From Oscillospiraceae bacterium (lineage in GTDB: Bacteria > Bacillota > Clostridia > UBA1381 > UBA9506): 54,093 nt of DNA. Positions 25,821 to 31,290 of the stretch are shown here, in pieces. Where the stretch lies: assembly GCA_015069045.1 (NCBI GenBank), contig SVJJ01000010.1, forward strand, positions 1-54,093. The letters are read 5' to 3'. The notes under the pieces are model-generated. The model searched no databases. It worked only from the letters and a program-made list of their open reading frames with translations, and was not told where the DNA came from. Position 1 is the first letter of the stretch; every line of letters starts with the position of its first letter. Made by a program: the position numbers and the translations under genes.

Positions 25821-25858
25821 AAAAACTGACACCGTGTTTCTATCGGTGTCAGTTTTTT
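25821..25858. terminator. Bidirectional terminator
   Basis: AAAAACTGACACCG and CGGTGTCAGTTTTT flank a short loop, with A/T tracts on both sides. It serves the DegV gene on the + strand and the phosphohexomutase-like gene on the - strand. Confidence 0.8.
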
Positions 25859-25935: not shown

Positions 25936-27105
25936 TCATTCACTACAGACAGTACATGGGTTATATTCTGAAATTAATCTACACACATAGGAAAAACTGC
26001 ATTTGTTTAAATATAAAAATTCACAAATGCGAATCATGGAACAAATAGGATCAAAACAAAGATTGTGCTGTAAACGGGAGGGAACAGTATTTTCAGCCAG
26101 GAGCTGATTTTCCAGCTTATAATCGGCTACACGGCTCACAGAAGCTCCGCAGACTTCTGCAATTGCTTCCGCTAAGCCGGATGTATGTTCTGGCAGATAT
26201 ACGGTGGCGTTTTCCACGGCCGATGCAACAATGAGGGTTATGAATGCATAAAAGGCATCGCCATCTATGATATGGCCATGCTCATCCAACAGACCAAATT
26301 TTCCATTTTGACCAACTAATAAACCGAAATCTAGTTTATTTTTTTGTATTAGTTCAGGTAACAGTTTTGGTTCATTGGTGAAGAAAAGAGATAATCCAAA
26401 TGCTGTGCCTATTCTTTTCATGTATCCTTGGGTTTCAGGGTTTTGAATGCATAGGGCAATGCTATAGTTTAATCGTTTGATTGGGGTGGTGGCCACTAAA
26501 TGACGAAAATAGTCTTGTGCCATGTGACTAACATTAATGGGGGTGCGGAGTTTTTCAATGTTTGCCCGATGAAAGGCATGCTCTTTTATATGCCATTTAA
26601 TACGACCCATGGAATCTTTTGACATAGGTGCACCTGTGTGATTAAACAGCTCTATGGTCATTCTTTCTCCTACACATTGCACAAAAATACCACCATCTAA
26701 ATGGAGATGGTTTATGGCAAACTTAGTAATACTTCTGTCGCCACCATCAATTAAATTATATACCTCTGCGCCGCCGGCCATACATCCGGAGAGAAGGGCA
26801 AATTTTGGCATCATATATTGACTGTTGTCAGACATGGACAGGAGGATTTTCTTTGCCTCTCCCAAAACTTCGGTTACAGATAAGGCAATTTCAATTAAAA
26901 ATTCGGGTGTTATTTCTCGATTTACAATACCACTGAAACAATGACATTCCTCTTCGACTTGATGCGGTTTTTTCTGAGAAACCGATGTTTTTTTGTTTAT
27001 ATTAAGGGGGTGCAAATTTGAAATGGCCGTTTTTGAATTGTTTTCTGTTGAAGGCCTCAGGTGTTTTCCTTTTTTATGAGTTACGTTAATAGGTTTCATA
27101 TGCAT
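25936..27105 (-). CDS. Catalytically degenerate phosphohexomutase-like protein
   Basis: 389 residues with the fold signature of alpha-D-phosphohexomutases: GIVNREITPEFLIEIALSV at the start, then GGAEVYNLID, HLHLDGGIF, NHTGAPMSKDSMGRIKW, a DFGLLVGQNGKFGLLDEHGH region, and a C-terminal 'LSEL'-type domain. The catalytic phosphoserine loop (normally TASHNP) is replaced by QCVGERMT, and the metal loop reads DGDAFY instead of DGDADR, so catalysis is doubtful. Similar degenerate domains occur fused to sugar-nucleotidyltransferases; here it stands alone. The first ~50 residues are basic, polar and low in conservation. The start could also be 6 bases later. It is 60 bases downstream of the AraC regulator, probably in the same transcript. 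Confidence 0.6.
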   Translation of the reverse strand: MHMKPINVTHKKGKHLRPSTENNSKTAISNLHPLNINKKTSVSQKKPHQVEEECHCFSGIVNREITPEFLIEIALSVTEVLGEAKKILLSMSDNSQYMMPKFALLSGCMAGGAEVYNLIDGGDRSITKFAINHLHLDGGIFVQCVGERMTIELFNHTGAPMSKDSMGRIKWHIKEHAFHRANIEKLRTPINVSHMAQDYFRHLVATTPIKRLNYSIALCIQNPETQGYMKRIGTAFGLSLFFTNEPKLLPELIQKNKLDFGLLVGQNGKFGLLDEHGHIIDGDAFYAFITLIVASAVENATVYLPEHTSGLAEAIAEVCGASVSRVADYKLENQLLAENTVPSRLQHNLCFDPICSMIRICEFLYLNKCSFSYVCRLISEYNPCTVCSE

Positions 27106-27165
27106 CAGTTCCTTTCCAATACAATGTGATTAGTTTGCATAAAAAACCAATAATTTATTCAACAT

Positions 27166-28206
27166 TTAGCGGAGTATTTTATCCCGATATCGTTTTGGCG
27201 TTGTTTGTGTCAGCTGGCGAAATATTTTGCCAAAATAGCTTCTATCCTCGTAGCCTATCATGGATGAAATTTCATGAATCGGAATCGAAGGATTAGTCAA
27301 AAGTTCCTTGGCCTTTTCAATGCGGATGTTATTGACAAATTGTGTAAAAGTTTTCCCTGTGCTCTCTCGAAAGATTTTAGAAAAATAAGATGGGCTTATG
27401 TAGACCTTAGAAGCCACCATCTTATGTGATAATTTTTTATTATAATTTTCTTGTATTATACATATAGCTTGTTGTATTAACAGATTATGCTTTAGGGAAA
27501 CAGCTTGAAAAACACCCTCAACAAAATTTTGAGAGGCTCGGTTCATACAGCTTTTAAGACTGCCAATTGACGTGGCCCTGGAAAGTGTAAGGGCAAACTC
27601 TTTAGACCAACCCTTTTGATGTTGTTGTGCGGTGCATATATTATCCATTATGGTAAAGAGCAACATAATAAATCGAATACAATCTGTTTTAAATTTTTTA
27701 AAATGATTGCCGTTATGAATCAAAAAATTATTGAATGCATCGTCTATAATGTTTTGTGCCAGGCTTGGGTTGCCTTCTTTTATGGCTTGTTTTAATTTGG
27801 AGTGATAGCCTTCAATTTCCGGTGTTTCAGGATAAATGTCAGGGGTAACGATTAAAGTCAATAAGTGTGCCATTTTTTCAAAGGTTTCCGGTCTCATAAC
27901 GATTGGAAAAGAATGCTGTAGATTCTTGTTTTTAATAGTGTGAACGGTGGCAGGTTTGTTAACATAACTTGAGCATAGGATGGGGTCAGATATTATGTAG
28001 CCGATTTTAGTATCCTTTGCACAAATGGGTATAGATATACAACATAAACCGTTTTTGCAAACGGAAATGGACCATGGTGATTGCGGAACATCGGTAATGG
28101 CGGGGTCATGCAGTTCATGCCATGTAATGCCCAGACCAAACAAATCTGTGAATAGTGTTGCATTTTTTAACACTTGTTGTTTAATAGCTTCGACATTTTT
28201 TTCCAT
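27166..28206 (-). CDS. AraC-family regulator with a possible PocR-like sensor domain
   Basis: A 346-residue regulator. The C-terminal ~100 residues are a double helix-turn-helix of the AraC type: ASKVYISPSYFSKIFRESTG and SSMIGYEDRSYFGKIFRQLT. The N-terminal ~120 residues (with GLGITWHELHDPAI and the Cys-rich CKNGLCCISIPIC) recall PocR ligand-binding domains, but weakly. A helical linker joins the two parts. AAAGGAG precedes the ATG. It has its own promoter and leads into the degenerate phosphohexomutase gene, which is its most likely partner or target. Confidence 0.85.
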   Translation of the reverse strand: MEKNVEAIKQQVLKNATLFTDLFGLGITWHELHDPAITDVPQSPWSISVCKNGLCCISIPICAKDTKIGYIISDPILCSSYVNKPATVHTIKNKNLQHSFPIVMRPETFEKMAHLLTLIVTPDIYPETPEIEGYHSKLKQAIKEGNPSLAQNIIDDAFNNFLIHNGNHFKKFKTDCIRFIMLLFTIMDNICTAQQHQKGWSKEFALTLSRATSIGSLKSCMNRASQNFVEGVFQAVSLKHNLLIQQAICIIQENYNKKLSHKMVASKVYISPSYFSKIFRESTGKTFTQFVNNIRIEKAKELLTNPSIPIHEISSMIGYEDRSYFGKIFRQLTQTTPKRYRDKILR

Positions 28207-28234: not shown

Positions 28235-28263
28235 ATTGTACCAATTATTTAAAGTAAAAGCAA
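28235..28263 (-). promoter_or_regulatory. Candidate promoter of the AraC-type regulator
   Basis: On the minus strand TTGCTT (28258-28263), a 17-base spacer and TACAAT (28235-28240), about 30 bases before the ATG. The -35 is weak, as expected for an activator-dependent promoter. Confidence 0.45.
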
Positions 28264-28345
28264 GAAATGGCGCGCTGTTATTTGTCACAATTAGACACAA
28301 AATGTAAAGGATTATTTTATCCACAACTTATGGGGAAAATAAATA

Positions 28346-28379
28346 ACAAAGGCACAAAACCGCAATTTTGTGCCTTTGT
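28346..28379 (-). terminator. Terminator of the DtxR/MntR-type gene
   Basis: ACAAAGGCACAAAA and TTTTGTGCCTTTGT flank a 6-base loop with an AT-rich tail on the minus strand. It lies just after the stop of the regulator gene. Confidence 0.8.
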
Positions 28380-28394
28380 TTAGATGGTTTATTT

Positions 28395-28760
28395 TTAATG
28401 CTTTTCAAAATATTCTTTGATTTTAGCAAAGCTTTGTTCGCTTAAACTATGTTCAATTTTACAACTGTCTTCATAGGCTGTTTTTTCATCCACTCCTAAA
28501 CGCATTAAAACCTTAGCGATTAATTGATGGCGGTCTAAAACGCCTCGAGCAATTTCGAGGCCTTTTTCCGTTAAGGAAATGGTTCCATCCTTTTCTACTG
28601 TAATGTAACCTGCTTCTCGAAAGTTCTTCATAGCCACAGAAACACTTGGCTTGGTAAACCCTAATTCGTTGGCCACATCAATGCTTCTAACCGCGCCCTT
28701 ATTGTTTTTTATCACCAAGATTGCCTCTAAATAATTTTCGGCAGATTCTTTTATAATCAT
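28395..28760 (-). CDS. DtxR/MntR-family metal-dependent regulator
   Basis: A 121-residue metalloregulator with the winged-helix N-domain (SAENYLEAI, VANELGFTKPSVSVAMKNF) and a dimerisation domain, without the SH3-like C-terminal domain of DtxR. Candidate metal ligands are Glu12, His78, Cys100, Glu103 and His104. The Cys-x2-Glu-His set is as in iron-sensing DtxR/IdeR, but the N-terminal Asp8 position of MntR reads Asn9. So manganese or iron preference is unclear. It is monocistronic, with a consensus promoter and its own terminator, and no metal transporter lies nearby. Confidence 0.88.
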   Translation of the reverse strand: MIIKESAENYLEAILVIKNNKGAVRSIDVANELGFTKPSVSVAMKNFREAGYITVEKDGTISLTEKGLEIARGVLDRHQLIAKVLMRLGVDEKTAYEDSCKIEHSLSEQSFAKIKEYFEKH

Positions 28761-28793
28761 GTCTGCACCCTCGTCATTTAATGAATTTGTTTT

Positions 28794-28822
28794 ATTGTAT
28801 CATAGTTTACAGAGATTGTCAA
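28794..28822 (-). promoter_or_regulatory. Sigma-A promoter of the DtxR/MntR-type gene
   Basis: On the minus strand a consensus TTGACA (28817-28822), a 17-base spacer and TACAAT (28794-28799). The -35 lies in a run of TTTGTCA-like repeats (28817-28840) that could serve as a metal-regulator operator. Confidence 0.75.
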
Positions 28823-28959
28823 ATTTGTCATTTGTCAAAGCAGTTAGCTGTTTTCTGGACTTTGAAAGCAGGTGATTAACCGTTTATTTTGTCTTATTCT
28901 GATTCATTATACCATTCCTGCTTCCAATTGCAAAATTAATTATATGTTGCAGATTTTTG

Positions 28960-28995
28960 TAAAGGAAAAGGACGAAACAAATATTGTTTCGTCCT
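28960..28995 (-). terminator. Terminator of spoIVB
   Basis: A perfect 12-bp stem (AGGACGAAACAA 28969-28980, TTGTTTCGTCCT 28984-28995) with a 3-base loop, followed on the minus strand by TTTTCC. Confidence 0.85.
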
Positions 28996-29042
28996 CTACT
29001 TTTAAAACTGAATATGCCTAACAACATAAGCGAATAATTCTG

Positions 29043-30293
29043 TTAGGATACATTTTCAAGCATTTTCTCAATAAATATTCCGTATCCTCTCGTCGGGTCG
29101 TTTACAAAGACATGGGTCACAGCGCCAATAATTTTGCCATCCTGAATAATGGGGGAGCCTGACATGCCTTGCACAATGCCACCGGTACGAGCAAGGAGGG
29201 TAGGGTCTGTTACGTGTATAATCATATTTTTATTTTCGTCAGTATAAAAAGGGAAGGTTTTTTGAATTTCAATTTCAAAGCGTTCTACTTGCTCTTGTGT
29301 AATATTAGACAAAATGTAAGCCTTGCCTTCTTTAACTTGATTACCCGAAGCAACCGGATAGTATTCTGTGGCAGGTGGTTCCGTTAGTTGCCCGTAAACC
29401 CCTTGTTCACTATTCTTTATAATAACACCTAAGTCCGGCTCTTGTGTTTTAAATACGCCCTTTAATTCTCCTGGCTCGCCTTTTTCTCCCTTTTGAACAC
29501 TAAACACTCTGGCACGGAGCAAACTTCCTTCAGATACAGGCATTAAAGCCCCGGTATCAGTATCCGTAATGGGGTGCCCTAATGCGCCAAAATGGAGTGA
29601 TTGTGGATCATAAAAGGTTAAGGTGCCGATGCCGGCTGTGCTGTCTCGTAACCAAATGCCCAAACGAAATCCTTCTTGGGTTTCAATGGGTGTAATGCTT
29701 TTTGTAAAGGTCTGGTTATTTCGTAATATAATCAGGTTTACACTTTGATGACCATTTTCAGCGATAAGGTCAATGAGTTGCTTTGTTTCCGTTAATTCGT
29801 GACCGTTTGCACTTATTATAATATCGCCGGTTCGAATGTCTGCCTCACGAGATATATTGCGAGAGTGCCCGTCTTTGCCCTTAATTTCTTGGGTACCTAC
29901 ACAAACAAGTCCCTTTGTAAAAATTTTAATTCCAACTGCATTTCCGCATGCAGCTAAGGTTCTTTTTGGTTCAACATTGACTGTAACAGAACGGACAGGA
30001 ATAAGGCCGAACAATTTCACGGTCATGGCATAGTCTCCGGTTTGCGATAGGGTCACATGTCGGTTATAGTTATCTGCAATCAGTTGACCGGTGTGGGTTA
30101 AAACGCCATTTGTACCTGCGGGGGTGTCAATAGAGTAAACCGATGCGGATTGTATGGGCAGTTGTTCCCCTTCAAACAAGGTAATGGTGTTGGGATATCG
30201 CAGTTGGCAATCTAAAATCATGGTAACAATAACCAACAATATCAATCGAAAAAATAGTGATATTCTGGTCGTACGTCTTATGCGCTCTATCAT
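29043..30293 (-). CDS. spoIVB: SpoIVB serine peptidase
   Basis: A 416-residue forespore protease that crosses to the intermembrane space and triggers pro-sigma-K processing by cleaving SpoIVFA. It has one N-terminal membrane helix, a PDZ domain (about 115-200, with RTGDIIISANGHEL), and an S55 peptidase domain. The catalytic candidates are His240 (GALGHPITD), Asp363 and Ser378 (GMSGSP), positions close to those reported for B. subtilis. I chose ATG 30293 because GGAGTGG precedes it; the ATG at 30320 has no ribosome site. Confidence 0.95.
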   Translation of the reverse strand: MIERIRRTTRISLFFRLILLVIVTMILDCQLRYPNTITLFEGEQLPIQSASVYSIDTPAGTNGVLTHTGQLIADNYNRHVTLSQTGDYAMTVKLFGLIPVRSVTVNVEPKRTLAACGNAVGIKIFTKGLVCVGTQEIKGKDGHSRNISREADIRTGDIIISANGHELTETKQLIDLIAENGHQSVNLIILRNNQTFTKSITPIETQEGFRLGIWLRDSTAGIGTLTFYDPQSLHFGALGHPITDTDTGALMPVSEGSLLRARVFSVQKGEKGEPGELKGVFKTQEPDLGVIIKNSEQGVYGQLTEPPATEYYPVASGNQVKEGKAYILSNITQEQVERFEIEIQKTFPFYTDENKNMIIHVTDPTLLARTGGIVQGMSGSPIIQDGKIIGAVTHVFVNDPTRGYGIFIEKMLENVS

Positions 30294-30330
30294 GTAATTC
30301 CACTCCGAATCTTCTAACATTATTCTTATT

Positions 30331-30359
30331 TAGATTGACCCGAAGCCACGTGATTATGC
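30331..30359 (-). promoter_or_regulatory. Candidate forespore (sigma-F/sigma-G) promoter of spoIVB
   Basis: On the minus strand AGCATA (-35; core 30355-30359) and, 14 bases later, GGTCAATCTA (30331-30340), which fits the sigma-F -10 consensus GGnnAnAHTR except at one position. B. subtilis spoIVB is known to be transcribed by sigma-F and sigma-G. Confidence 0.5.
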
Positions 30360-30382
30360 TGGAACGTTTTTGGAAAAGTGTT

Positions 30383-31234
30383 TTAATTTGTAATGGACTG
30401 ACCGAATTCATCCAACGATTTAAATCGATATCCTTCACTTTTTAAATCTTTAATAATTTTATCTAACACCTCAGCATTATCTTTTGACACAGCGTGTAGC
30501 AATAAAACAGCACCATCGTGTACACCTTTTTTTATTTGATTATAGGCATGGTCTGTGCCTTTCTGTTGATTAACATCCCAATCCTTATAAGCAAAGCTCC
30601 AGAATACATTGGTATATCCCAAATCCTCACAAATTTTCAAGGTACGTTCGGAGTATTCGCCACGGGGAGGACGGAAATATTTCATCTCTTGCCCATATTT
30701 TTCTTGAAACATTTTGGCAAGCTGAGTAATTTCCTCCTTGACCTTTTCCGTGCTGTCAAGTTGAGGCATGCTGGGATGATGAACAGTATGGTTGCCGACG
30801 ATGTGACCCTCTTCGATCATGCGTCGGACTAGTTTTTCCTCCTTTTCTAAATAAGGTCCGGTTACAAAAAAAGCAGCTTTTACGTTGTTTTCTTTTAAAA
30901 CATCTAAAATTTTTTCGGTATAACCATTTTCATAGCCTTCGTCAAAAGTTAAATATAGAGAACGGGGCGTTGAATCCAGATATATGGCGTGATATGTATT
31001 GATTAGGGTCTTAATACTATCGGGAATATCCGGGGGCGCATTTACGTTTTTCTTAAGGCCCCAGCCATACATGGTATTAGAGTAAGATTCGTAGCCGGTT
31101 TCAACATTTGCCATGGTAACGGAAACAGGGCGCACCGGGTTTAAAGAAATTTCTTTACGAAATGGGTTTTCCTTATTTGTACATCCAGATAGAAATACAA
31201 GGGCAAACGCAGTTATTAGAAGAAATTTTTTCAT
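30383..31234 (-). CDS. PdaA-like polysaccharide deacetylase lipoprotein
   Basis: A 283-residue NodB-fold deacetylase. It shows the PdaA-type catalytic motif TFDEGYENGYT (Asp98 region), the zinc motif HTVHHP (His149, His153), then RPPRGEYSERT and LLLHAVS. PdaA makes the muramic delta-lactam of the spore cortex, so that germination enzymes recognise it. Unlike B. subtilis PdaA, this one has a lipobox (VFLSGC, Cys18). I chose ATG 31234, nine bases after AAAGGA; upstream ATGs at 31240 and 31273 fit less well. Its place beside spoIVB and a sporulation-type promoter support the role. Confidence 0.88.
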   Translation of the reverse strand: MKKFLLITAFALVFLSGCTNKENPFRKEISLNPVRPVSVTMANVETGYESYSNTMYGWGLKKNVNAPPDIPDSIKTLINTYHAIYLDSTPRSLYLTFDEGYENGYTEKILDVLKENNVKAAFFVTGPYLEKEEKLVRRMIEEGHIVGNHTVHHPSMPQLDSTEKVKEEITQLAKMFQEKYGQEMKYFRPPRGEYSERTLKICEDLGYTNVFWSFAYKDWDVNQQKGTDHAYNQIKKGVHDGAVLLLHAVSKDNAEVLDKIIKDLKSEGYRFKSLDEFGQSITN

Positions 31235-31262
31235 TGCCATCCATCCTTTATATTTTTTTATT

Positions 31263-31290
31263 ATTGTATGCATATTTTTTTGTTTTATGT
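31263..31290 (-). promoter_or_regulatory. Candidate sigma-E/sigma-G promoter of the pdaA-like gene
   Basis: On the minus strand CATACAAT (31263-31270) is a full match to a sigma-E -10 and close to sigma-G. The -35-like ACATAAA (31284-31290) lies 13 bases upstream and is partial. Confidence 0.4.

Follow-up and report, generated by a model that had tools for sequence, protein, structure and literature searches.

The window, a stretch of 54,093 nucleotides from an Oscillospiraceae bacterium (contig SVJJ01000010.1), encodes a catalytically dead phosphohexomutase-like protein directly behind an AraC-family regulator. Sequence comparison and phylogeny identify this dead mutase as the released C-terminal half of a widespread clostridial fusion, in which a nucleotidyltransferase, a hexapeptide domain and a dead mutase are joined. 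The two genes might form a self-contained, autoregulated AraC operon, whose output would be a non-catalytic mutase-like protein that probably acts by binding another protein; we hold this reading with about even confidence.

Both genes lie on the minus strand and have intact open reading frames, as the preliminary description had reported. The AraC-family regulator gene (27166..28206) encodes 346 aa. The dead-mutase gene (25936..27105) follows after an intergenic gap of 60 bases and encodes 389 aa, comprising domains I-III. Its likely start codon is found in ATGAAA at 27099, and the gene is preceded by a ribosome-binding-site-like sequence, GGAAAGGA (27110..27117, minus strand). The upstream boundary of the unit is a terminator-like hairpin 3' of an upstream MntR-like gene (28345..28380, minus strand), consisting of a 16-pair stem and a T-rich tail. 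The downstream boundary is a hairpin, CTGACACCG-loop-CGGTGTCAG (25826..25852, unstranded), which has T-runs on both flanks and is shared with a convergent DegV gene; its 9-base loop exceeds the limits of the terminator scan, and it was called by reading the sequence. No nucleotidyltransferase was found fused to the window dead mutase or near it, in line with the preliminary description, and none of that family was found in the genome.

The phosphohexomutase frame that had been proposed for this protein is well supported. Pfam PGM_PMM_I matches residues 59-178 (E 7e-6, above the curated cut-off), and NCBIfam Arch_GlmM matches with an E value of 2.6e-11. In the AlphaFold model, residues 50-382 are predicted confidently, with a core pLDDT of about 90; residues 1-49 are predicted to be disordered. 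Structural comparison (Foldseek, VIA-align) matched the model to the phosphohexomutase 9du5 with a Z score of 32.7 over 329 residues and an rmsd of 2.9. The folded mutase-like core, as delimited by pLDDT and the range of the structural match, contains domains I-III and corresponds to 25960..26958 on the minus strand.

When the protein was aligned with intact paralogues of G007 and of the window genome itself, all active-site loops proved to be lost. The phosphoserine loop, (T/S)ASHNP, is replaced by VQCVGE, which agrees with the loss first described. The metal loop (DGDxDR; FDGDADR in GlmM) is also lost, but not at the place given for it: DGDAFY aligns with DGDKIM, a conserved GlmM segment past the metal loop, and the true position reads LVGQNGKF. 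Two further losses had been overlooked. The sugar-binding loop GE(x)SGH (GEQSGH) is missing from the alignment, and domain IV is absent together with its phosphate loop RPSGTEP, although the relatives run on into domain IV. A frameshift was considered as the cause of the domain IV loss and rejected; about 200 bp are left before the next gene, and they contain no continuation. Homologues with intact catalytic loops, which had been named as a refutation, were sought, and none of the 62 relatives carries any of the four active-site motifs (regular-expression check of the last 460 residues). The mutase domain must thus have been dead long before it stood alone. The non-canonical motifs KFA, GDR..AKF and CFDPIR..CEFL are strongly conserved across the fused and the stand-alone forms. 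With the metal, sugar and phosphate loops gone besides the catalytic serine, a classical site for sugar phosphates is unlikely, and sensing of such compounds would depend on a new pocket. The sugar-phosphate sensor suggested in the preliminary description finds no support, though a newly arisen pocket could still accommodate a small ligand.

Homologue searches covered 101 relatives, then the whole genus and family and 245 genomes of the class. The dead-mutase family is present in about 80 of the 245 sampled Clostridia genomes. Outside the genus, the closest relatives form the C-terminal half of proteins of 730-860 residues, in which NTP_transferase and hexapeptide domains come first (nucleotidyltransferase-LbH-PGM fusions of the COG1208 plus COG1109 type), and all of the checked fusions share the dead loops of the window protein. 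In comparison with these fusions, the window protein is without the enzyme, the hexapeptide and domain IV. The full fusion is kept in G007, with an AraC gene directly upstream; this fusion gene is cut by the end of a contig, with the C-terminal part on another contig. The window dead mutase and this fused sister share 50% identity. Stand-alone dead mutases of 435-451 residues occur in G001, G004 and G008, all with a domain-IV-like tail that was lost in the window genome. In the phylogenetic tree, the stand-alone clade (support 95/89) is a neighbour of the fused sister.

A trace of the lost enzyme is still found at the N-terminus. Pfam gave no NTP_transferase or hexapeptide match in the window dead mutase, and only a 23-residue stub is left (27031..27099, minus strand). 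This stub, MKPINVTHKKGKHLRPSTENNSK, aligns without gaps to MKAIILAGGEGRRLRPLTDKLPK, the N-terminal nucleotide-binding segment of the fused sister in G007, with 8 of 22 residues identical (Met excluded; permutation p 5e-5). The underlying DNA is identical at 32 of 66 positions (p 5e-5). The G004 dead mutase starts with MKAIILIG, and its enzyme stub reached the same permutation p of 5e-5. These remnants suggest that the enzyme half was removed by an internal deletion, which spared the start codon and the ribosome-binding site. Splitting off or relocation of the nucleotidyltransferase was also considered and rejected, as the window genome has only GlgC/GlgD, RmlA, GlmU-like and other generic enzymes with 18-30% identity. 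A 49-aa fragment at a contig end was likewise discarded as the lost nucleotidyltransferase; it is the start of GlgC after GlgB.

The release of the dead half was not restricted to this genus. Stand-alone dead mutases without the enzyme half were found in two other families: f32 (G250, G290, and G180; 401-432 aa) and f19 (G240, G196, G143, G109, G283, and G323; about 400-424 aa). In the maximum-likelihood tree, every stand-alone group branches, with starred support, beside fused relatives from its own family; the topology requires three state changes. As read from this tree, the enzyme half has been lost three times independently. A split-off nucleotidyltransferase of the fusion family is absent from the genomes with released mutases; only generic ones were found, with about 30% identity.

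The pattern of constraint differs between the families. Between fusions of other families, identity is 58-70% for the enzyme half versus 30-43% for the dead half. In the window's family, the identities of the enzyme and dead halves are about equal (60/57, 44/47, and 47/47). One full-length fusion of G017 (L024 8519-10708) has an enzyme half without catalytic motifs (GGEQSRL, GN for GD, and no YWCD); its reading frame and its dead-mutase half are intact. By these comparisons, constraint has moved towards the dead half in the window's family, and the dead half seems to be the needed part. In G019 (L021 1027-1029), an in-frame TAA interrupts the nucleotidyltransferase half, and an ATG directly after it opens the remaining fusion; the split may be genuine, or the assembly may be faulty here. 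Codon differences between genomes, including the stand-alone genes, amount to 0.28 at the second position versus 0.63 at the third, and synonymous sites are saturated between the compared genomes. The genes are under purifying selection, and chance is thereby excluded. The branch of the window dead mutase (0.45) is close in length to that of the still-fused sister (0.38). By these measures, the window gene is not decaying freely.

The AraC protein contains a C-terminal double HTH (residues 251-342; HTH_18, E 5e-21), and both HTH_18 and HTH_AraC are above the Pfam cut-offs. A Foldseek search of its model against the PDB matched the HTH to AraC DNA-binding domains in fold, and gave HTH matches only, with none for the N-terminal domain. 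The N-terminal domain has a marginal similarity to PocR (23.3 bits, below the cut-off of 23.9). The window AraC protein and that of G004 (L018 10329-11357) have lost the CxxC motif of the PocR-like sensor domain, a motif kept by the other orthologues. Distant PocR-AraC relatives in G010 and G011 (L056, L057) have another conserved neighbour in common, a gene for a small membrane protein immediately upstream.

A lack of conserved pairing with AraC, the second refutation named in the preliminary description, was not borne out within the genus, where every one of the five genomes with a dead-mutase gene has the pair. The gene directly follows AraC in each of them, at four chromosomal sites; the pair is known from these five genomes, at least four of which are metagenome-assembled. 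The dead-mutase gene is missing in the other five of the ten genomes of the genus. An AraC orthologue without the partner is found in G003, G005, and G006, and in two of these three AraC-only genomes it occupies the dpaAB-linked place where G001 and G008 hold the pair. The AraC tree leaves the branching order open. Outside the genus, none of 56 loci with fused or stand-alone relatives has an AraC-like gene nearby; some of these loci overlap, and many extend only about 1.5 kb to each side.

Upstream of the AraC gene, a candidate operator was identified by matrix score and conservation. It is a 19-bp direct repeat, GTGTCTAATTGTGACAAAT (28280..28298, minus strand), with two half-sites, a 10-bp period and its centre at about -61. 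The sigma-A-type promoter consists of a -35 element TTGCTT (28258..28263, minus strand) and a -10 element TACAAT (28235..28240, minus strand), both at positions conserved in five genomes. All five paired genomes have this promoter at the same place, with TTGNTT/C, a 17-bp spacer, and TACAAT or TAAAAT. A generic promoter scan missed it, the -35 match being too weak, and the promoter call rests on conservation. The leave-one-out matrix score of the window operator is 20.2 bits versus 4.4 in shuffles (p 0.002). All five paired genomes scored 16-21 bits versus about 4.5 for shuffled sequences, with p 0.002 each, which is the floor of 500 shuffles; the matrix was built without the genome under test. 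The operator is missing in the three AraC-only genomes, whose scores are at or near the shuffled level. The operator centres in the five genomes lie at -61, -65, -61, -57, and -62, and the range of -57 to -65 is the position of a class I activator. In G004, the operator is in inverted orientation.

The operator appears to be confined to this operon. In the window genome, it is the only site with fewer than 3 mismatches. Ten genomes were scanned with up to 3 mismatches, and no second comparable operator was found in the five paired genomes; the G007 scan also gave an overlapping register of the same operator. The remaining matches have 3 mismatches and are mostly intragenic, with 6 in the window genome versus 5 for a reversed control pattern. 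Upstream of the fused genes in other genera, the best site scored 9.2 bits, compared with 21-25 bits for the five true sites. Since the operator is unique to the AraC operon, AraC is probably the protein that binds it. Another factor could bind there instead, and weaker operator copies elsewhere, hence further AraC targets, may exist.

With a single operator, the output of AraC would be its own operon, and the dead mutase would be an effector or a feedback partner. The AraC protein may bind the 19-bp operator upstream of its own sigma-A promoter. From the class I activator position, it would then adjust the transcription of its own gene and of the gene behind. The output would be a phosphohexomutase-fold pseudoenzyme under selection, which probably acts by binding another protein, perhaps with a target in cell envelope or sporulation control. 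A precedent for such binding is GlmM: even a form that lacks domain 4 binds the diadenylate cyclase CdaA and inhibits it (PDB 7olh; PMC8573169). There, too, a mutase fold acts by protein binding and domains I-III are enough; the window protein likewise lacks domain IV. However, GlmM is an active enzyme and has no transcription-factor contact. Two pseudoenzymes, PGM5/aciculin (a paralogue of PGM1) and GMPPA (a paralogue of GMPPB), serve structural or regulatory functions. These proteins resemble the window protein as non-catalytic members of the same enzyme families, but they are eukaryotic, are not known to be coupled to a neighbouring transcription-factor gene, and keep more of the parent enzyme. 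The window regulator itself is similar to AraC/XylS regulators with a PocR-type sensor in its C-terminal double HTH, its marginal PocR similarity and its candidate autoregulatory promoter site. It differs from them in the loss of CxxC (shared with G004), in an operator that apparently serves only its own operon, and in a neighbour that is not a catabolic gene. The nucleotidyltransferase-LbH-PGM fusions outside the genus were not seen with an AraC gene directly upstream, whereas the fused sister in G007 has the same AraC.

Along the lines of the preliminary description, the dead mutase might instead be a co-sensor or anti-activator. It would bind AraC and set its activity according to a metabolite, for example a sugar phosphate. 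The pairing is kept at four different chromosomal sites, and the operator is conserved only where the partner is present. The partner was retained after its enzyme half was deleted, and CxxC was lost from the AraC sensor domain in the window and G004, as if sensing had moved elsewhere. However, the dead mutase has lost its sugar, phosphate and metal loops, three genomes have an AraC orthologue but no partner, and the dead mutases released independently in two other families lack a neighbouring AraC gene. Furthermore, as no other operator was found, the only thing regulated by such a sensor would be its own production. The only operator that could be detected belongs to this very operon, and AraC acting on its own operon explains this at least equally well. 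We consider a dedicated co-sensor unlikely, and prefer an autonomous role under AraC control, which is about evenly probable, because dead mutases occur without AraC and AraC occurs without dead mutases. Slightly less likely again is a version in which the repeatedly released dead half was recruited in this genus as a partner of AraC, forming a closed two-gene module, and modulates AraC directly.

Two further explanations appear improbable. The protein might be an enzyme with a new chemistry, or a binder of some ligand in a new pocket of the mutase fold, under AraC control. The strong conservation of the non-canonical motifs in fused and stand-alone forms is in its favour, but no new catalytic motif was recognised and every canonical residue is gone. 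Marginally less probable still is a decaying remnant, a gene on its way out after the enzyme loss and carried along only by chance at the end of the AraC operon. The stepwise reduction, in which the enzyme half and then domain IV (in the window genome) disappeared, would fit such decay, as would the absence of the gene from five of the ten genomes of the genus. It is at odds with long intact frames at 45-50% identity, saturated synonymous sites with second-position constraint, a window branch nearly as short as that of the fused sister, and a compact fold that is predicted with confidence.

Regarding the possible target of the autonomous pseudoenzyme, the genes around the dead-mutase family might give a lead. 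The recurring sporulation neighbours were found at window positions 28395-31273, L018 11462-16375, L019 5299-6755, and L026-L029. In the window, spoIVB and pdaA lie near the gene pair (28395-31273). In G004, an apparent spoIIIA operon was recognised by eye (L018 11462-16375), and its single tested member had no NCBIfam match. A dpaA-dpaB neighbourhood recurs in G001, G003, G005, and G008, and in order-level relatives, spoIIP is divergent from the nucleotidyltransferase-mutase fusions. The stand-alone dead mutases of another family at L143, L144, and L145 are divergent from comEC and holA and have a spo0A-like response regulator a few genes off (all names by eye).

Regulatory pseudoenzymes and autoregulated AraC operons are both known kinds. 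In the literature searched, nothing relevant was found on the AraC-mutase pair or on the dead mutase half of the nucleotidyltransferase fusions, nor was any case found in which an enzyme was repeatedly discarded in favour of its dead partner domain. The usual expectation is reversed here: on three independent occasions the catalytic half of a fused enzyme was discarded, and the dead half was kept under selection. This retention points to an unrecognised non-catalytic role of a domain that many Clostridia possess; having one operator only, the AraC operon may provide a compact handle on that role.
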